From positions 1-46,343 of the forward strand of contig JAIXUI010000085.1 in assembly GCA_027484125.1 (NCBI GenBank): a stretch of DNA of 46,343 nt. The letters run 5' to 3'. The notes below the pieces were generated by a model. That model had not been told where the DNA came from. It saw nothing but the letters and a program-made list of their open reading frames with translations, and made no database searches. A program made the translations under genes and the position numbers. Shown in pieces: positions 19,367 through 37,733 of this stretch; position 1 is the first letter of the stretch, and the number at the start of each line of letters is the position of its first letter. The DNA is from Bacteroidota bacterium. GTDB lineage: Bacteria; Bacteroidota; Bacteroidia; UBA7662; JAIXUI01.

Positions 19367-21367
19367 TTATTTCTTGTCATCGCCTGCGTTATTGAACATT
19401 TCATCACCGTCTTGTGATTCTTGTCCAGTTACGCGCTTGTACTTAATGATGCCTTTAAAGTCTGAAGAAAGAACTTTGAAGGTCGTACGGCGGTTGATTT
19501 GATGTTCTTCCTCAGTACACTGAACACCATTGGCACAACGGTTCAACAATTTGGTTTCACCAAATCCTTGAGCTGTCAGGCGCTCTTTCTCAATGCCTTG
19601 TTCAATCAGGTAGTTAACCACGCTTTGAGCACGACGCTGAGACAAGTCAAGGTTATATTCATCAGAACCACGAGAGTCGGTGTGAGAGTTGATGCCAATG
19701 CGAAGGTTTGGTGACGTTTTAAGAATGCCAACAAGCTTCATCAACTTCGTTTTAGAAGTATCGCGGAGTTTGTCAGAATCGAGGTCATACAAGATATCTT
19801 CGAGGGTAATTTCTTCCAAAGGAACCGGCTTCAAAGGAATGTCAATGGTGAAATTCTTTGAAACAGGCTGATTTTTGGTACTTACTTCCGCAGAATTTCC
19901 AAAATAATCACGGCGGCTAACCAACAGTTGATAAGAAGCATTTTCCTTCAGTTTGAAAGAATACTGTCCTTTGCTGTCAGTGGTTACACTCTGATAAGTT
20001 GAATCGTCAGGATTTAGCAGCTTGATATCGGAATTAGCAAGAGGATTGCGGGTAGAGTCATCGAACACTATACCTGCCACATTGAAAATCAAAGGATTAA
20101 GTTTCCAAATGTAAATATCATCAGAACCTTTACCACCTTCGCGGTTAGAGCTCATAAAACCTTTGTCTTTCGTTGGGCGAGCTACAAAAGCGAAATCATC
20201 AGCACCTGAGTTGATAGGTGCTTTCATGTTTTCAGGCGTACTCCAAGTGGTCCCACCACCTTCAGCACGGAAAACATCAAGTCCACCCATTCCGAGGTGA
20301 TAATCAGAGGAAAAATAAAGGGTGTTGTCTTTGGTGATGTAAGGGAACATTTCATCACCGGGAGTATTGATGGCAGCGCCTAAATTGATTGGGGCTTCTG
20401 GTTTTCCACCACCTTTTCCAAGGTTCGCCATCCAAATGTCGCGGCCGCCTAGCCCACCTGGAGCATTGGTAGCCACGAAATAGAGGGTTTTCTCATCGCC
20501 GGAAAGTGCTGGTTGGCCGATGGTGATGGTATCACCAAACAAGCCCATAGTTTCAGGCGCAGACCAAGTAGTTCCCTGTTTTTTTGACATAAAAATTCGG
20601 CAGCCCCCTTTTTTACTATCGCAAATGGTATAGAAGGCTAGGGTTCCTGCTTTGTTGAACGTACTTGCTCCTTCATTGTAAGAAGAGTTTACCTCACCTT
20701 CAAGAGGCTTAACGTCAGAGAACTTTCCCTTTTTATCAGCATAAGACTCAAACAAGTCTGAGAATTCTTCACCGGTACGGCCATAGATTTTCTTTCCGGT
20801 AGCTTCTTCACGAGTAGACGTAAACACAATACCATTGGATTTGTAGAAAGACACACCATAGTCGGAATACTTGGTATTCACAGACTTCATGTTTTCAACC
20901 TCGTAACGAGAGGGGGTGGCTTTCCAATCTTTAGCCAATTTGCAACCATCTAGGGCTCTAGTAGCCTCTTTATCATCGGGCTTAAGACCTAAATAGGCAT
21001 TATATTGTTCAATAGCGAGGTCATACTTCTCATTCATTCGAAGGATTCGAGCGTATTGAATATGCAGTTCGGGGTCTGAGAAGCCTGCTTTCAGCGCCTT
21101 ATCGTACCAGCCTTCCGCAAGTTTTGGGTAGTTAGCCAAGCGATAGCATTCGGCGATACGGAAAGAGGCTTTGCCTTTAACGTCCTTAGTTTTTTCTTTC
21201 TCCTTGTAATTTTTGGTTGCCGGCTTTTTATAGGCCTCAACCGCTTCAAAATAAAGCTCGAGATTGAAAAGCTTGTCTCCGGCCTCCAGTTCCTTTTGAG
21301 CAGAAGCGCTGAAGGTGCAGGCTGCAACCAGCAGGAGCGCCAGGGAGAGTCTTCGAATATGCAACAT
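19367..21367 (-). CDS. PorE-like TPR/PD40/CRD/OmpA envelope protein
   Basis: The 666-residue protein has a signal peptide (cleavage SASA|QKE; an LVAAC lipobox-like segment also lies in it). Domains follow in order: TPR helices (~25-150), a PD40/WD40-like propeller with repeats such as PALSGDEKTLYFVA, FPYITKDNTLYFSSD and GFMSSNREGGKGSDDIY (~165-430), a carboxypeptidase-regulatory-like domain (FNVAGIVFDDSTRNPL, ~435-515) and an OmpA-type peptidoglycan-binding domain (YDLDSDKL, then INSHTDSRGSDEYNLDLSQRRA, then RRTTFKV). This order matches T9SS protein PorE, though Bacteroidota carry several paralogues. ATG 21367 is chosen because the promoter covers the upstream alternative at 21421. Confidence 0.82.
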   Translation of the reverse strand: MLHIRRLSLALLLVAACTFSASAQKELEAGDKLFNLELYFEAVEAYKKPATKNYKEKEKTKDVKGKASFRIAECYRLANYPKLAEGWYDKALKAGFSDPELHIQYARILRMNEKYDLAIEQYNAYLGLKPDDKEATRALDGCKLAKDWKATPSRYEVENMKSVNTKYSDYGVSFYKSNGIVFTSTREEATGKKIYGRTGEEFSDLFESYADKKGKFSDVKPLEGEVNSSYNEGASTFNKAGTLAFYTICDSKKGGCRIFMSKKQGTTWSAPETMGLFGDTITIGQPALSGDEKTLYFVATNAPGGLGGRDIWMANLGKGGGKPEAPINLGAAINTPGDEMFPYITKDNTLYFSSDYHLGMGGLDVFRAEGGGTTWSTPENMKAPINSGADDFAFVARPTKDKGFMSSNREGGKGSDDIYIWKLNPLIFNVAGIVFDDSTRNPLANSDIKLLNPDDSTYQSVTTDSKGQYSFKLKENASYQLLVSRRDYFGNSAEVSTKNQPVSKNFTIDIPLKPVPLEEITLEDILYDLDSDKLRDTSKTKLMKLVGILKTSPNLRIGINSHTDSRGSDEYNLDLSQRRAQSVVNYLIEQGIEKERLTAQGFGETKLLNRCANGVQCTEEEHQINRRTTFKVLSSDFKGIIKYKRVTGQESQDGDEMFNNAGDDKK

Positions 21368-21391
21368 CGCAGGTGGTTTGGTTTGGAATAT

Positions 21392-21421
21392 CAAATTTAG
21401 TGTAATATACAGATTGACCAA
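21392..21421 (-). promoter_or_regulatory. Promoter of the PorE-like gene
   Basis: On the minus strand TTG (21419-21421), 19 bp and TAAATTTG (21392-21399) match the consensus. The predicted leader is about 18 bases. Confidence 0.85.
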
Positions 21422-21424
21422 CTA

Positions 21425-22240
21425 TCAGAGGTCCTTCCAAAGGTCAATCTGTTGAAGTTGAAGTTTATTTCCGAAGAAAAGCCTGGCTGATTTCTGAAAG
21501 GACTCTGTAAAATCAGAGACATAAAAGGTGCGTCGGCCTTTAGTTTGTTCGGTATTGAGCCAGTTTCGTTCTTCAAGTGCGGCAGCCAATGCTTCTGCCA
21601 CTTGAAAGGCGGAATCCACAATTTCGACTTTACCTTGATAGAAACGTTCTATTTCCGGCAAAATTAATGGGTAATGTGTGCAGCCCAAGATGAGCTTTTT
21701 CACAGGTTTCAAACGTCGGTTTGACAGGTAGCTGTTGATGATGGTTTTCGAAATGTTATTATCGAAAAAACCTTCCTCAATCATGGGCGCAAGAAGCGGA
21801 GTAGCTACTTCTTCAACTGGCATAGCCGGATTCAACTCATGCAACTTCCGGCTGTAAATGCCTGATTTTACGGTTGCTTTGGTAGCAATGAGGCCTACTT
21901 TTCCAACCGTGTAATGCTTGTTTACATAACGAACGGTAGGATCAATTACATTGATCACGGGAATTTCATTCCCAACGAACGCTTCAACAGCCTTGCCTCC
22001 TAATGAGCTTGCAGTATTACATGCAATCACAATTGCTTTCACATGATGCGACATCAGGAAGCGAGTAATTCCTAAAGAATATCGCGTAATAAGCTCTGGG
22101 GATTTATCCCCATACGGAAGATGTGCAGTATCTCCAAAGTAGAGCAAGTGTTCTCCCGGAAGTCGCTTCATGATAGCGGACGCCACTGTTAAACCACCTA
22201 TTCCGGAGTCAAAAACACCAATGGGGCGAGTATCTGCCAT
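21425..22240 (-). CDS. murI: Glutamate racemase
   Basis: The 271-residue enzyme makes D-glutamate for peptidoglycan from L-glutamate without a cofactor. FDSGIGGLTV (10-19) contains the substrate-binding Asp-Ser; the two catalytic cysteines are C74 (ACNTASS) and C187 (LGCTHYP). Length is usual. ATG 22240 is chosen; the alternative at 22267 lies right at the T run of the preceding terminator and would add nine unlike residues. No promoter of good match is seen between terminator and start, so read-through from the skp genes may supply its transcript. Confidence 0.95.
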   Translation of the reverse strand: MADTRPIGVFDSGIGGLTVASAIMKRLPGEHLLYFGDTAHLPYGDKSPELITRYSLGITRFLMSHHVKAIVIACNTASSLGGKAVEAFVGNEIPVINVIDPTVRYVNKHYTVGKVGLIATKATVKSGIYSRKLHELNPAMPVEEVATPLLAPMIEEGFFDNNISKTIINSYLSNRRLKPVKKLILGCTHYPLILPEIERFYQGKVEIVDSAFQVAEALAAALEERNWLNTEQTKGRRTFYVSDFTESFQKSARLFFGNKLQLQQIDLWKDL

Positions 22241-22269
22241 AATGTGAAGGTCAGTAGAAGTAGGCATAA

Positions 22270-22293
22270 AAAAACCGCCTGATGGCGGTTTTT
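22270..22293 (-). terminator. Terminator between skp and murI
   Basis: A 10-bp stem (22270-22279 with 22284-22293), loop of 4, followed on the minus strand by a run of Ts. It ends the bamA-skp block. Confidence 0.85.
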
Positions 22294-22303
22294 ATTGTTA
22301 AGA

Positions 22304-22864
22304 CTATTTTCGTGGCGCCTTAGGTTTTTCGTCGGCTGGGGCTGCCGGCATTCCAGTAAGGTTTAGTTTTTTCTTTACAAGGTCGAGGATGTTGTCACTA
22401 TCCTGAGCGTAGAGCACAGTTCCGGTGCTACTGTCAAAGATGTAACCATACTTACCTTCAGCAGCTACCTCTTTGATGGCTTTTTCTACTTTTTTAAAGA
22501 TAGGAGAGTACAATTCTTCTTTCTTTTTACCAATGTTTTGCTGAGCACTTTGCTGGAAATCATCGATACGTTGCTGCAAGTCTTGAATTTCCTTCTCACG
22601 AATTTCTTTTACAGCATCAGCAAGGGTGGCTTTCTTGGCCTGATAATCTTGATATTTATTCTGAAGTTCTTCAACCATGGCTTTGAGTTGGGTTTGAAGG
22701 TCAGAAGTAAATTTCTTCAAGTCTTCATCTGCTTTTTTAGTGTCAGACATCATACCTACCACCTCTGAAGAGTTGATATGGCCGAAGCGAGTCTGCGCCA
22801 TGAGGCTACCGGAAAAGGCTGCAAGCATCAGGGCGAGGAGGGCGATTTTTTTAAACATGGACAT
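22304..22864 (-). CDS. Skp/OmpH-family periplasmic chaperone (second copy)
   Basis: The 186-residue protein has a signal peptide (cleavage SLMA|QTR) and the long charged coiled-coil arms of Skp (about 45-125), then the conserved end of the family (KEVAAEGKYGYIFDSS, then VLYAQDSDNILDLVKKKL). A proline/alanine/lysine tail follows. Skp holds unfolded outer-membrane proteins between Sec and the BAM complex. It is the last gene of the PorG-like/uppS/bamA/skp block. MSMFKK and MFKK (22858) are both possible starts; the first is given. A TATATTTG element just upstream could start an extra transcript. Confidence 0.9.
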   Translation of the reverse strand: MSMFKKIALLALMLAAFSGSLMAQTRFGHINSSEVVGMMSDTKKADEDLKKFTSDLQTQLKAMVEELQNKYQDYQAKKATLADAVKEIREKEIQDLQQRIDDFQQSAQQNIGKKKEELYSPIFKKVEKAIKEVAAEGKYGYIFDSSTGTVLYAQDSDNILDLVKKKLNLTGMPAAPADEKPKAPRK

Positions 22865-22875
22865 TAGATTGGTTT

Positions 22876-22883
22876 CAAATATA
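22876..22883 (-). promoter_or_regulatory. Candidate internal -7 element before the second skp (TATATTTG)
   Basis: On the minus strand TATATTTG lies in the 27-bp gap between the two skp genes, 11 bases before the ATG. No -33 TTG is seen, so support is partial. Confidence 0.4.
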
Positions 22884-22891
22884 GGGATTGG

Positions 22892-23467
22892 TCACTTTTT
22901 GTTAGGTTCTTTGGCTTTCTTGGCGATTCCCATCAGCTCGATTACTTCATCGCTTTTATCCAATTTAGGATTCGAGTAAAGCATCGTTACAGCACCGGAT
23001 TTATCAAAGATGACATCATAGCCTTTTTCTCGGGCAAGCTTCTGAACAGCTTCGTAAACTTTATCCTGAATGGGTTTCAACAAATCTTTCTTTTTACTAA
23101 ACACTTCACCTTCAAATCCAAATTTTCTTTTTTGAAAGTCTGCAAGCTCCGACTCTTTTTTTCGAATATCGGATTCACGCTGTGTTCGCATTTCGTCGGT
23201 GAGGAGGGCCTGCTCTGCCGCAAGGTTTCGATACATACCATCAATTTCTTTCTGGCGATCTTCGATTTCCTTGGCCCACTGTCCTGAAAGGGTTTCGACT
23301 TGTTTTTGAGCAGCGGTAAATTCCGGCATTTGACTGAGTATGTATTCGGTATCAATCCAGGCAAACCGCTGTGCACTTGCTTGCTGAACTTCTACACCGA
23401 AAAGCATGATGAAAATCATGCCAAAAATCAGTCTCCCTCTTTTTCTCAAAAAATAGCTGCGCATCAT
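22892..23467 (-). CDS. Skp/OmpH-family periplasmic chaperone (first copy)
   Basis: The 191-residue protein has a long signal peptide with a basic start (cleavage QASA|QRF) and the Skp coiled coil (about 50-140), ending with KLAREKGYDVIFDKSG and a lysine-rich tail. Two adjacent ATGs exist; the first overlaps the last base of the bamA stop codon (TGATGATG), so it is translationally coupled to bamA. The pair of OmpH/Skp proteins after bamA is the arrangement known from Porphyromonas gingivalis. The two copies differ widely in sequence and are not a recent duplication. Confidence 0.92.
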   Translation of the reverse strand: MMRSYFLRKRGRLIFGMIFIMLFGVEVQQASAQRFAWIDTEYILSQMPEFTAAQKQVETLSGQWAKEIEDRQKEIDGMYRNLAAEQALLTDEMRTQRESDIRKKESELADFQKRKFGFEGEVFSKKKDLLKPIQDKVYEAVQKLAREKGYDVIFDKSGAVTMLYSNPKLDKSDEVIELMGIAKKAKEPNKK

Positions 23468-25956
23468 CAGAATTGTTGACCAATAGAAATGTGAATTTGC
23501 CCACGATTTACATTAGGAAGACCAGGAACTGTATCAAACCCATATCCCCAATCTAGCCCTAATAGTCCGAACATTGGAAGGAAGATACGGATACCACCAC
23601 CAGCAGAACGGTAATTGCGGAAAGGGTCGAATTGCCCAGTAGTAAGGAAGGAATTTCCACCCTCCAAGAAGCCTAACACATAGATAGTTGCCGAAGGATT
23701 CAAAGAAATTGGATACCTCAACTCCATGGTATATTTCTGGAAAACAGAGGCACCAAGGTAGTTTCCGGCATTATTCCGAGGGGTAAGGGTGTTATTGTTG
23801 TACCCGCGAAGACCTATTAGCTCACGATCATCAAGTACAAATCCTTGGATTCCATCACCACCTACATAATAGCGACCGAAAGGCACTTGGCCATAATCTT
23901 GGTTGTAGGAGCCCAAAAATCCATATTGAATGCGCGTATTCAGTACCAAATCGCCGAGTAATCGGGTGTACCAGTTTCCATCAAAACGCCATTTGTGGTA
24001 TTCTATCCATTTATAGCGACTCACCGCATCGATGGTTTTATAATCTAACCCATTCACAAGCGACCATGGTGGAGTAAACTGAGCGGTTAATGAAATATTG
24101 GCGCCTGAGCGCGGATAAATAGGCTGGTCAATGGAGTTTCTGGAAATGGTTTCCTTGAAGAAAAAGCTATTCGCTATTCCGTTAGAAAATAGACCCAACG
24201 AGTTGTTGTTGGTAACAGCAAATTGTTGATAATTGACTGAGTGGATCAGGGTGAAGAAATCGTCAGGCTTCTTTAATCTCTTTCCTAAGCTTACTGAAAC
24301 CCCTGTTACATTGATTCCGGAAGGGATGTTACTTCCAAAAGGAGATAAATTCTGAATTGACGTATAGGCAGAAACGGTAAGCGCATTAGGCTTTTTCCCT
24401 CCTAACCAAGGCTCGGTAAACGAAACATTGTAAGATTGGAAAAAGCGTCCGTTGCTTTGAATACGAAAGCTCAGACGTTGACCATCGCCCGAGGGTAATG
24501 GTTTCCAATTTTTCCATTTCGTAGCATTTCGGGTAGAGAAATTATTCAATACCAGACCAAGTGAACCCACAATTTGGTTGGCCCCCCAACCACCGGAAAG
24601 TTCAATTTGGTCATTAGAACGCTCTACTACTTTATACTCAATGTCAACCGTACCGTCCTGAGGGTTTGGTATAGGCGTAATTCCGATTTGTTCAGGATCG
24701 AAATAGCCTAATTGGGCAAGTTCGCGGTTGGTTCTGATGATATCGGCACGGCTAAACTTCTGACCCGGACGAGTTCTTAGCTCGCGCAAAATCACATGGT
24801 CGTTGGTTTTATCGTTACCGCTGATGATAATGCGGTTGATGGTGGCTTGTTGGCCTTCTGTTAGTTTAATTTCAATATCTATGGAATCTTTTTCCACTTT
24901 TACCTCAGTAGGCGAAACCTGGAAAAACAAATAGCCATCATCCATATAAAGCGAGCTGATGTCGCGTCCGGATGGATCCATGTACAAACGGGCATCTAAA
25001 GTAGCCTGATTGTAAACATCGCCTTTCTTAATGCCGATAATTTTAGCCAAAACAGAATCCGGGTGAACAGTATTTCCGCTAAAAGTGATATTTCTAAAAC
25101 GATACAATTGGCCTTCGTTGACTTTGATACCTATTCTAAATCGCTTATCAGAAATCTTATAAACGGTGTCCCATGTAACTCGGGCATCACGATAACCGGC
25201 ATCGAGGTAGCGTTTTTCAATCAGCTTTTTATCATCTTCAAGCTTACTGGCGAAGAATTTACCACTTCGAAAGATATTCCACCACTTCTTCTCCTTGATT
25301 TCATCCATCGCCTTTTTAAGTTGACGACTTGATAGGGCTTTATTTCCTTCAAAGACAATTTCACCAACTTTCACCTTTCTTCCCGGTTCTACCGCAAGCT
25401 TTACGATAACAGAATTGGTTTGATTGGTGTCGCGTACTTCCGAAACATTCACTTTTACGTCCCAGTAACCTTTTTCGAGATAATAATCGCGAGCAACATT
25501 CTCAGCGGTCATAAGCAAATCGGCAGTTACAATTCTGCCCTTATTCTGCTTCAGCTTATCATTGATATTGTCCACATCGCCTTTGCTCAAATTTTTAGAA
25601 TAGGCAAAGTTGGAGAGGCGTGGACGTTCTGTAAGGTGAATGGAAAGAAAAATATTCTTGTCTTCTACCCTATCAACCATAATCTGTACATCTCCAAATA
25701 GATTTTGCTTCCAAAGGTTTTGAATGGCTTTGGAAAGCTTCTCACCTGGCACGTTGATAGATTCTCCAACTTTAAGACCGGAAATCATCACCAAAACGTC
25801 CTTATCAAGGAATCGGGTGCCTACTACTTTCACAGCAGCGATGGTATATTCTTTTGGATTTTTATAATCTGGTTTAAAGGTATCCAGGCTTACTTGCCCC
25901 TGGGATTGAAACACTGAAAGGAGAAGCAAACCTGCCAGCAGGAAAAAATTACGCAT
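23467..25956 (-). CDS. bamA: Outer-membrane protein assembly factor BamA
   Basis: The 829-residue protein is the core of the BAM machine that inserts beta-barrel proteins. After a signal peptide (cleavage SQG|QVS) it has five POTRA domains (about 35-440; for instance FEGNKALSSRQLKKAM and ISGNDKTNDHVILRELRTRPG) and a C-terminal 16-stranded barrel with SFTEPWLGGK, the loop-6 region with GLRGY, and the terminal strand ending in QQF. It overlaps uppS by 8 bases upstream and the first skp by one base downstream. Confidence 0.96.
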   Translation of the reverse strand: MRNFFLLAGLLLLSVFQSQGQVSLDTFKPDYKNPKEYTIAAVKVVGTRFLDKDVLVMISGLKVGESINVPGEKLSKAIQNLWKQNLFGDVQIMVDRVEDKNIFLSIHLTERPRLSNFAYSKNLSKGDVDNINDKLKQNKGRIVTADLLMTAENVARDYYLEKGYWDVKVNVSEVRDTNQTNSVIVKLAVEPGRKVKVGEIVFEGNKALSSRQLKKAMDEIKEKKWWNIFRSGKFFASKLEDDKKLIEKRYLDAGYRDARVTWDTVYKISDKRFRIGIKVNEGQLYRFRNITFSGNTVHPDSVLAKIIGIKKGDVYNQATLDARLYMDPSGRDISSLYMDDGYLFFQVSPTEVKVEKDSIDIEIKLTEGQQATINRIIISGNDKTNDHVILRELRTRPGQKFSRADIIRTNRELAQLGYFDPEQIGITPIPNPQDGTVDIEYKVVERSNDQIELSGGWGANQIVGSLGLVLNNFSTRNATKWKNWKPLPSGDGQRLSFRIQSNGRFFQSYNVSFTEPWLGGKKPNALTVSAYTSIQNLSPFGSNIPSGINVTGVSVSLGKRLKKPDDFFTLIHSVNYQQFAVTNNNSLGLFSNGIANSFFFKETISRNSIDQPIYPRSGANISLTAQFTPPWSLVNGLDYKTIDAVSRYKWIEYHKWRFDGNWYTRLLGDLVLNTRIQYGFLGSYNQDYGQVPFGRYYVGGDGIQGFVLDDRELIGLRGYNNNTLTPRNNAGNYLGASVFQKYTMELRYPISLNPSATIYVLGFLEGGNSFLTTGQFDPFRNYRSAGGGIRIFLPMFGLLGLDWGYGFDTVPGLPNVNRGQIHISIGQQF

Positions 25957-26701
25957 TGGGGCTTTTCAATTGGTCACTGGTGAGGCCATAACGGCGCTCG
26001 CGTTTTTGGTAATCGAGGATGGCACAATAGAGATCCTCTTTGTTAAATTCCGGCCAGAATTTTTCTGTAAAATAAAATTCAGAGTATGCAACTTGCCAGA
26101 GGAGGAAGTTGCTAATTCGATGTTCTCCGGAAGTACGAATCAACAATTCTGGATCCGGCATAGAAGCAGTAGTGAGGTAGCTATTAAATAGCTGGTCATT
26201 GATAATTTCAGAGGAAAGTTTGCCTAGTTGAGCATCAGCAACCATCGATTTCACCGCATTTAAAATCTCCCAACGGGAAGAATAACTCAAGGCGAGTGTA
26301 AGCTGCATCTTACTGTTAGGGCCGGTAGCTTTGATGGCTTCCTCCAATTCTGCCCTGCAAGAAGGTGGCAATGAATCGAGATCGCCGATAGCAGAAAGGC
26401 GAATTCTGTTTTTAATTAAGGTTTCAGTCTCACTTTTGATGGTAGAAACCAATAGCGACATAAGTGCATCAACCTCTGGCTTGGGTCTGTTCCAATTTTC
26501 TGTGGAGAAGGTGTAGAGGGTAAGATATTCTACCCCAAGTTCTGCACAAGCTTCTGCAGTTTCACGAACAGTTTGAACGCCTTTAGAATGCCCGAAAACA
26601 CGATCTTGACCTTGGGAATACGCCCAACGTCCATTACCATCCATGATAACAGCGATGTGTTTTGGCAGGGTGCTAAGATTGATTTTATCTTTTAGGCTCA
26701 T
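25949..26701 (-). CDS. uppS: Undecaprenyl diphosphate synthase (isoprenyl transferase)
   Basis: The 250-residue cis-prenyltransferase makes the C55 lipid carrier for peptidoglycan and surface glycans from FPP and IPP. IMDGNGRWA (19-27, catalytic D21), GHSKGVQ, FSTENW near 80 and RTSGEHRISNFLLWQ followed by SEFYF near 195-215 are all typical. It sits between the PorG-like genes (9-bp gap) and bamA (8-base overlap), an order conserved in P. gingivalis. Confidence 0.95.
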   Translation of the reverse strand: MSLKDKINLSTLPKHIAVIMDGNGRWAYSQGQDRVFGHSKGVQTVRETAEACAELGVEYLTLYTFSTENWNRPKPEVDALMSLLVSTIKSETETLIKNRIRLSAIGDLDSLPPSCRAELEEAIKATGPNSKMQLTLALSYSSRWEILNAVKSMVADAQLGKLSSEIINDQLFNSYLTTASMPDPELLIRTSGEHRISNFLLWQVAYSEFYFTEKFWPEFNKEDLYCAILDYQKRERRYGLTSDQLKSPNA

Positions 26702-36290: not shown

Positions 36291-36322
36291 TTGCAGGCAC
36301 TCGTTAAGCACGAGTATTTTTG
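36291..36322 (+). promoter_or_regulatory. Strong promoter of the EGR-repeat gene pair, with spacer dyad
   Basis: TTG (36291-36293), 21 bp and TATTTTTG (36315-36322) match the consensus, giving a leader of about 12 bases. The spacer holds a perfect inverted repeat, ACTCGT (36299-36304) and ACGAGT (36310-36315), which may be an operator or the terminator of the preceding gene. Confidence 0.82.
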
Positions 36323-36339
36323 CATCAAATTCAACAGAT

Positions 36340-36801
36340 ATGAGAAAAGCTCTTTTTGCAGCACTCTTCTTAGTGCTTGGTTTTGCGGCAACCGCCCAGA
36401 AGTTCGACAAGAAGTATTTAAAATCACCCATTTTTGACCGGGCGTACTACCTGAAAACGCACCTTGATGTGGCTACAGCAGGCGTTGCTCCAGAAAAACA
36501 TTGGGAAGGAAATGGCTTCAAAGAAGGTCGTGCCAGTTCTCCTGTTTTCGATGCCAAGTACTACCTGACCAACAACAAAGACCTTTCTGACAAGTGGGGA
36601 CAAGTAGCTTTCGATAAAGCGATTGAGCACTACCTCGCATTTGGCATGAAAGAAGGCCGCCAGGCTCATCCAAACTTCGACCCTAAAGCTTACACCGAAT
36701 TAAACGCTGACCTTTATAAGAAGTTCGGGAAAAACTACCCAGCATTGATCGACCATTACCTCAAGTTTGGATTTAAAGAAAACCGTAAGGCTACCAAATA
36801 A
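36340..36801 (+). CDS. Secreted protein of three EGR-type repeats
   Basis: The 153-residue protein has a signal peptide (residues 1-19, cleavage AATA|QKF). The rest is three repeats of ~40 residues (about 29-67, 68-110 and 111-152), each beginning with P-x-FD-x-x-(Y)Y(L), then D-(V/L), then H(Y/W) and ending G-(F/M)-KE(G/N)R. The module is known from glycosyltransferases and large calcium-binding exoproteins of other phyla, where its role is unclear. Here it stands alone as a mature protein of ~130 residues. It lies 2 bp before a homologous gene and has a near-perfect promoter, so high expression is likely. It should be periplasmic or bound to the outer membrane. Confidence 0.75.
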   Translation: MRKALFAALFLVLGFAATAQKFDKKYLKSPIFDRAYYLKTHLDVATAGVAPEKHWEGNGFKEGRASSPVFDAKYYLTNNKDLSDKWGQVAFDKAIEHYLAFGMKEGRQAHPNFDPKAYTELNADLYKKFGKNYPALIDHYLKFGFKENRKATK

Positions 36802-36803
36802 CC

Positions 36804-37733
36804 ATGAAAAAACTCCTCGCAATCGTCCTGTTACTTTCAGGATTTGGCGCAGTTGCCCAAAAGATGGACAAAAGATTTACCTCTGCACCCATCTTTGATC
36901 GTGCCTTCTATCTAAGAACACATACCGATGTTGCAACTGCCGGCATCGATCCGGTTAAACATTGGACAGAAAACGGCATGAAAGAAGGTCGCGCAAGCTC
37001 TCCTGTCTTCGACGCTAAGTATTACCTCAATCGTTACGACGACTTGAAAAGTCAGTTTGGCGAAGATTATTCCAAAGCGATTACTCACTTTTTGGATTTT
37101 GGAATGAAGGAAGGCCGTCAGGCTTCTGCCACCTTCGATGCGAAATACTACGCTGAAGCAAACCCAGACCTGTACAAAACTTTCGGGCTTCAGTATGACA
37201 AACTGATTAACCACTACCTTACCAACGGCATTCGTGAAAACCGTCGTACAGCCAACAACGACCGCGATGACGACGGCGTAGCCAACGAAAGCGACAAATG
37301 TCCTGACCAACCAGGTCCTGCAGCTAACAATGGCTGCCCTGAAGCGAAAAAATCCAGCTTCACCTCTGCGATTATCAAGCAAATCGAAAACAAGTTGAGC
37401 ATGACGGCTAAAAGCATTCGCTTTGAAACCGGAAAAGCAACCCTGGTACCAGCCTCTTTCAAAGTACTCGACGATTTGTACGCTTTCATGAGAAAGTATC
37501 CAGAAGCTCGCTTTTCAATTGGCGGCCACACCGACAACGTAGGAAATGCAGAAGCTAACATGAAGCTTTCTGAAGCACGTGCTTATGTGGTAAAAGACTG
37601 GTTGGTGCGTAAAGGAATTGAGCGTTTTAGAATTGAAGCTAAAGGCTTTGGAGACACTCAACCCATCGACAACAACGCAACTGCTGTGGGTCGTGCCAAA
37701 AACCGTCGTACCGAAATGAAACTTATTCCTTAA
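36804..37733 (+). CDS. EGR-repeat protein fused to TSP3 and OmpA domains
   Basis: The 309-residue protein has a signal peptide (cleavage GAVA|QKM), then three EGR-type repeats (about 28-152) closely matching the preceding gene product. A thrombospondin type 3-like calcium motif follows (NDRDDDGVANESDKCPDQPG, ~153-172), and a complete OmpA C-terminal domain (FETGKATLVPASFKVLD, then IGGHTDNVGNAEANMKLSEARA, then AKNRRTEMKL) that binds peptidoglycan. It should tether the repeat module to the cell wall from the outer-membrane side. It is separated from the first copy by 2 bp. The two share the repeats but only this one has the anchor. Confidence 0.82.
   Translation: MKKLLAIVLLLSGFGAVAQKMDKRFTSAPIFDRAFYLRTHTDVATAGIDPVKHWTENGMKEGRASSPVFDAKYYLNRYDDLKSQFGEDYSKAITHFLDFGMKEGRQASATFDAKYYAEANPDLYKTFGLQYDKLINHYLTNGIRENRRTANNDRDDDGVANESDKCPDQPGPAANNGCPEAKKSSFTSAIIKQIENKLSMTAKSIRFETGKATLVPASFKVLDDLYAFMRKYPEARFSIGGHTDNVGNAEANMKLSEARAYVVKDWLVRKGIERFRIEAKGFGDTQPIDNNATAVGRAKNRRTEMKLIP

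Follow-up and report, generated by a model that had tools for sequence, protein, structure and literature searches.

A tandem pair of predicted exported proteins built of the EGR repeat, an uncatalogued and probably wall- or sugar-binding module

Two neighbouring plus-strand genes of a Bacteroidota bacterium, ORF1 and ORF2, code for predicted exported proteins that share three tandem copies of the same repeat, which make up nearly all of ORF1 and are followed in ORF2 by an OmpA-type peptidoglycan-binding domain. The repeat, called here EGR, is a module that is not catalogued in the current family libraries (Pfam, NCBIfam) and has no solved structural relative. As it occupies the position of the wall-binding domain in lysis enzymes of gut phages, it is probably, by analogy, an undescribed wall- or sugar-binding module. 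The explanation that fits the data best as a whole, to which we assign a probability of roughly 0.5, is that a wall- or glycan-binding module is present here in two forms, in a soluble protein (ORF1) and in a protein clipped to peptidoglycan (ORF2).

Results

The gene pair

The genes lie in a stretch of 46,343 nucleotides, which was analysed in its whole length and is referred to as the window. They are separated by 2 bp, and their repeat arms are 60% identical across 149 residues (Table 1). A scan of the window with the pattern TTG-N21-TATTTTTG, which we take to be the Bacteroidota promoter consensus, gave eight matches on the two strands, one of them upstream of ORF1; tRNA genes follow two of the remaining ones. 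There was no match in the gap between ORF1 and ORF2; ORF2 does not have its own promoter of this type, and the two genes are apparently co-transcribed. The initial annotation described both genes as strongly promoted, and of this a good promoter before ORF1 remains. The promoter overlaps an inverted repeat followed by a T-run, a terminator-like element that may end transcription of the upstream genes and double as promoter region, or may serve as an operator. In ORF2 the codons CGA and CGG are absent and the Asn, Asp and Tyr codons end in C; this codon bias and the promoter fit a high expression of the pair. The pair stands behind priA-DUF502. Its GC content (0.45-0.46) is the same as that of the window, and an anomaly of composition that would hint at recent transfer was not seen.

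Elsewhere in the window, genes for an undecaprenyl diphosphate synthase, a BamA-like Omp85 protein, two OmpH/Skp-like proteins and an Asp/Glu racemase-like protein stand in a row (21425-26701, minus strand), and the next gene codes for a PD40/OmpA protein (19367-21421); together they form an envelope-biogenesis cluster.

Table 1. Features of the gene pair and its upstream region (positions in the window)
Feature	Position	Strand	Basis or remark
Promoter, Bacteroidota type, TTG-N21-TATTTTTG	36291..36322	+	pattern scan; upstream of ORF1 only
Inverted repeat ACTCGT-TAAGC-ACGAGT, then ATTTTT	36299..36321	+	read from the sequence; overlaps ORF1 promoter
ORF1	36340..36801	+	free-standing three-repeat exported protein (predicted), 153 aa
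ORF1 signal peptide, about aa 1-20	36340..36399	+	by eye: hydrophobic stretch, then A-T-A-Q|K; no lipobox Cys
ORF1 repeat 1 (38 aa form)	36430..36543	+	HMM, aa 31-68, 36.8 bits
ORF1 repeat 2 (43 aa form)	36544..36672	+	HMM, aa 69-111, 52.5 bits
ORF1 repeat 3	36673..36792	+	HMM, aa 112-151, 40.5 bits
ORF2	36804..37733	+	three repeats, TSP3-like linker, OmpA domain; 309 aa
ORF2 signal peptide, about aa 1-19	36804..36860	+	by eye: A-V-A-Q|K; no lipobox Cys
ORF2 repeat 1 (38 aa form)	36891..37004	+	HMM, aa 30-67, 42.7 bits
ORF2 repeat 2 (42 aa form)	37005..37130	+	HMM, aa 68-108, 59.1 bits
ORF2 repeat 3	37131..37253	+	HMM, aa 110-148, 44.4 bits
ORF2 single TSP3-like calcium-loop linker	37254..37316	+	PF02412, 14.9 bits (cut-off 25; sub-threshold)
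ORF2 OmpA C-terminal-type peptidoglycan-binding domain	37419..37706	+	PF00691, 74.2 bits (cut-off 27.2)

The repeat and the domains of the two proteins

The claim that the two adjacent genes share three repeats of about 40 residues was confirmed by an independent HMM. The HMM was made of sequences from other organisms, with ORF1 and ORF2 excluded, and it found three units in ORF1 (126 bits, E 2.4e-38) and three in ORF2 (146 bits, E 1.8e-44), the best score among 800 shuffled sequences being 7.9 bits. The tandem units of 38-43 residues have the consensus FD-YYL-DV-HYL-G-EGR; in both proteins the first unit has 38 residues and the later ones about 41-43. Over approximately 700 units the conserved positions are Y (100%), H (98%), G (98%), D (94%), R (91%) and E (90%), and the near-invariant residues of the 42-column unit are Y7, D13, H28, G33, E36 and R38.

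No Pfam family matched the repeat in ORF1 even at E 10, and another protein consisting almost wholly of EGR repeats was also blank in Pfam. NCBIfam and PHROG gave no significant match to the repeat, and a sequence search of the PDB gave none. Identity of the repeat with a well-described domain, which the initial annotation had named as a possible objection, was thus not observed. An AlphaFold2 model of the repeat, computed from 61 sequences, was of good quality (pLDDT 92.3, pTM 0.81) and has three short helices per repeat. Foldseek comparison of this model with the PDB returned nothing below E 5.6, a search whose sensitivity may be limited by the shortness of the helices; among viral predictions its matches (best E 8e-5, with low TM-scores) were giant-virus proteins, glycosyltransferases among them. 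The literature search, which covered papers other than those behind subscription, where an earlier description is possible, found nothing relevant on the repeat sequence or on a new wall-binding repeat of endolysins, and no report of a ligand or a binding assay for any protein of the family.

Of the TSP3 + OmpA fusion originally assigned to ORF2, the OmpA domain is unambiguous, and TSP3 amounts to one motif scoring below the cut-off. In OmpA C-terminal domains a conserved Asp and a conserved Arg hold diaminopimelate; the corresponding residues of ORF2 are D244 (in HTDN) and R259 (in LSEAR), 15 residues apart, and both are kept in the related protein of locus L067 described below. TSP3 as a functional part of ORF2 was rejected for lack of conservation, the motif being absent from the L067 protein. 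A structure model of full-length ORF2, for which two sequences were used, was of low quality (pLDDT 50) and was left out. ORF1 and ORF2 would be located in the periplasm.

Relatives of the pair and their history

An earlier scan of genome contigs, done with narrower patterns, found no relative. A scan of 84,980 species with two peptide patterns identified one close relative, L067 (MAG bacterium RI_152; 2e-51), the next best match being at 2e-23. The made-up consensus sequences used for loosening the patterns steered the choice of pattern and did not enter any tree or profile. In L067, a second Bacteroidota genome, a free three-repeat protein is followed, after a gap of 38 nt, by a protein with three repeats, a Thr/Pro linker and an OmpA domain; the 2-bp gap of the window is therefore not conserved. 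The neighbouring genes also differ, the L067 pair following a dihydroorotase-like gene instead of priA-DUF502. PriA of the two genomes is 35% identical, whereas the repeat proteins are 52-60% identical, therefore transfer or strong constraint is likely for the repeat proteins, a comparison based on one housekeeping protein and thus thin.

The 119 relatives of the L067 genome included two (G757 and G780) with one free three-repeat protein each, behind a dihydroorotase-like gene as in L067; an OmpA-fused copy was not found anywhere in these two genomes. The absence of paired occurrence, the other objection foreseen initially, was thus encountered in part: the combination of free and OmpA-fused protein recurs in an independent genome, but G757 and G780 carry the free protein only, therefore the pair is not obligate.

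In the tree the free proteins R1, S757 and S780 cluster together. Grouping the OmpA-fused arms of ORF2 and L067 in one clade was rejected (p-AU 0.014), nor are their OmpA domains sisters. With linkers that also differ, a single ancient fusion is not favoured, although gene conversion between the arms is an alternative that could mimic such a pattern. The OmpA tethers look independently acquired or swapped in the two lineages, and the likeliest history, as judged from these sequences, is that a free repeat protein underwent tandem duplication and that two lineages each gained or swapped the tether on their own.

Distribution of the repeat

The repeat was present in 13 of 395 genomes of the window's phylum, in 6 of 395 of its class and in one of 21 of its order, the one being this genome (99.7% complete), in which no protein besides ORF1 and ORF2 matched the repeat at E 0.01. 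As had been noted at the outset, the repeat is free-standing here and an accessory elsewhere, in glycosyltransferases and exoproteins. In the class-level matches that were read, the repeats precede WbsX-like or other polysaccharide-synthesis parts, or form long arrays (domains assigned by eye). In the mainly proteobacterial remainder one glycosyltransferase family occurred in 11 of 25 proteins and RTX repeats in 6 of 25. The repeat was also found in 102 plasmid records, many of them with alphaproteobacterial glycosyltransferases, methyltransferases, M10 peptidases and calcium-binding proteins.

The Gram-positive and viral sets show a repeat spacing of 42, and Proteobacteria and Bacteroidia glycosyltransferases one of 38; retrieval with peptide patterns near the window's own repeats biases the viral and genome samples to the 42-residue form. 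In the window proteins the spacing is 38, then 42/43. A tree of 61 three-repeat stretches places the window pair and its relatives on the Clostridia/viral side, apart from the mostly 38-residue proteobacterial set, with a split (support 100/99) that may partly reflect the unequal length of the two forms.

Some further arrangements were seen. A second repeat architecture within the phylum is that of long Big_5 or RTX-like exoproteins (L005-L023, family f68) with exactly three repeats and in some cases, judged by eye, subtilase-like parts. On two Roseobacter plasmids (L028:2683-3234 and L029:2671-3234) the gene of a small protein with two repeats at its end stands directly before that of a repeat-bearing glycosyltransferase. 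The record MT836085.1 (L026), deposited as "Bacteriophage sp.", contains ABC polysaccharide export, glycosyltransferases and a glucosaminidase-like protein with eight repeats; it looks like a fragment of a bacterial chromosome, and because of this gene content it was left out of the viral evidence.

Phage endolysins and Clostridia wall enzymes

In IMG/VR the repeat was found in 24 loci (L043-L066), and exact repeat octamers had no match in viral contigs. When 20 viral ORFs were scanned with Pfam, the companions were CHAP (5), Glucosaminidase (4), Amidase_2 (4), Phage_lysozyme (2), GH25 (2) and Amidase_3 (2), and PHROGs placed most of the tested repeat-bearing viral proteins among endolysins. 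Most repeat-bearing viral proteins end in two repeats of the 42-residue form (e.g. L055:3908-4252 and L063:4001-4252), and this two-repeat module is 46-78% identical between proteins with unrelated catalytic parts. In Clostridia and Collinsella the repeat is accompanied by Amidase_3, polysaccharide deacetylase (Polysacc_deac_1), CAP, Glucosaminidase, GH25, M23, NlpC/P60 and YkuD domains. One module shuffled onto unrelated catalytic domains is the signature of endolysin wall-binding domains; the repeat family has this signature, the window proteins themselves do not. Since the repeat ends many unrelated phage wall hydrolases, it is, by endolysin logic, probably a wall-binding module.

Discussion

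We propose that the EGR repeat is a small three-helix module binding cell wall or glycan. ORF1 would then be soluble, well expressed and periplasmic (or exported), and would carry three binding modules; ORF2 would be a tandem duplicate of ORF1 that gained an OmpA domain. The OmpA domain would clip ORF2 to peptidoglycan while its three modules bind the same or a neighbouring glycan, so that a mobile binder (ORF1) and a fixed binder (ORF2) could coat or cross-link the wall. For the window proteins the binding of wall glycan, the place in the periplasm, the level of expression and the division of labour are inferred. The 38-residue repeats in polysaccharide-making enzymes are also counted for the glycan-binding reading. 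It must be noted that many of the proteins with the repeat, namely glycosyltransferases and methyltransferases, appear to be cytoplasmic, thus wall binding cannot be the role of their repeats, and that the viral and Clostridia matches belong to Gram-positive lineages, whereas the cell here is Gram-negative, therefore the glycan bound may differ.

The initial annotation suggested a two-part envelope structure, in which the repeats bind each other and soluble ORF1 assembles on wall-anchored ORF2. The tandem, apparently co-transcribed genes, the similar repeat arms of which one is anchored, and the like arrangement in L067 agree with such a complex, but we consider it unlikely: as an obligate structure it is contradicted by G757 and G780, which keep the free protein alone, and in other organisms hydrolases and glycosyltransferases carry the repeat as an accessory within a single chain, with no need of a partner copy. 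Its occurrence in endolysins and wall hydrolases points to wall or glycan binding rather than to a complex between repeats.

It is also conceivable that both proteins hold capsule or matrix polysaccharide at the cell surface, ORF2 by its wall tether, phage wall binding being a side use of a general polysaccharide recognition. The repeat does occur in glycosyltransferases of surface polysaccharides (WbsX, RgpF, GT2 and GT4 types) and in RTX/Big exoproteins, and its fold is matched by giant-virus glycosyltransferases. However, the only secretion signal of ORF1 and ORF2 is the signal peptide, there is no lipobox, and the proteins end at the repeats or at OmpA, therefore surface exposure is unsupported; moreover, no polysaccharide locus adjoins the pair, save for one nearby glycosyltransferase gene on the opposite strand. 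We regard exopolysaccharide binding as rather improbable. Neutral tandem duplication, with ORF2 a duplicate fused to OmpA by chance and no division of labour, would suit a pair known in two genomes and a free protein standing alone in two others, but it is very unlikely in view of the intact reading frames and key OmpA residues, and of the presence of the pair in two lineages whose OmpA domains and fused arms do not group together, which suggests repeated gain or active swapping.

Returning to wall/glycan binding, a broader interpretation can be offered, tentatively and with some doubt: EGR may be a glycan-recognition repeat, undescribed and very widespread, with a fold that the PDB does not yet contain, common to phage endolysins, Clostridia wall enzymes, and surface-polysaccharide and giant-virus glycosyltransferases, which in at least two Bacteroidota lineages was turned, apparently independently, into a free and a peptidoglycan-clipped protein organising the periplasmic wall. 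The repeat exists in hundreds of copies in several phyla and in gut-phage endolysins, yet neither Pfam nor NCBIfam has a model for it, and no related structure has been solved. Should it bind the wall, the targeting part of many gut-phage lysins of Clostridia would be accounted for, and an accessory of polysaccharide glycosyltransferases that lacks an explanation would acquire a role. The pair in the window, being the simplest form of the repeat with little else, with and without a wall anchor, is convenient for finding the ligand.

Comparison with known systems

It is instructive to compare the repeat and the two proteins with systems already described. By size, helix content and place, the nearest analogue of the EGR repeat is the CW_7 repeat of Cpl-7 (PMC5705596). 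CW_7 (PF08230) is likewise a three-helix unit of 37-43 residues, the helices of EGR being predicted by AlphaFold2. The consensus FD-YYL-DV-HYL-G-EGR is, however, different, Pfam gave no CW_7 match in ORF1 and ORF2 (E up to 10) or in the endolysins (E up to 0.01), PF08230 is absent from the Pfam companion tallies of the repeat-bearing viral and Clostridia proteins, and in Foldseek the EGR model found no CW_7 structure, nor any other PDB fold. The gut-phage endolysins (IMG/VR) and Clostridia wall hydrolases contain the 42-residue repeat, approximately 34-44% identical to ORF1, but fused to catalytic domains, of which the window proteins have none.

ORF2 resembles the OmpA-family peptidoglycan-anchored proteins of Bacteroidota (N-terminal domain, TSP3 and OmpA) in its OmpA domain and single TSP3-like linker; it differs from them in having neither a beta-barrel nor a lipobox, in a linker that is not kept in L067, and in an N-terminal part made of an uncatalogued repeat. 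In Proteobacteria and in distant genomes of the window's phylum, glycosyltransferases and RTX/M10 exoproteins carry repeats of the same family as an accessory, mostly in the 38-residue form, whereas in the window proteins the repeat, mostly in the 42-43-residue form, constitutes the whole protein, or all of it but the OmpA tether.
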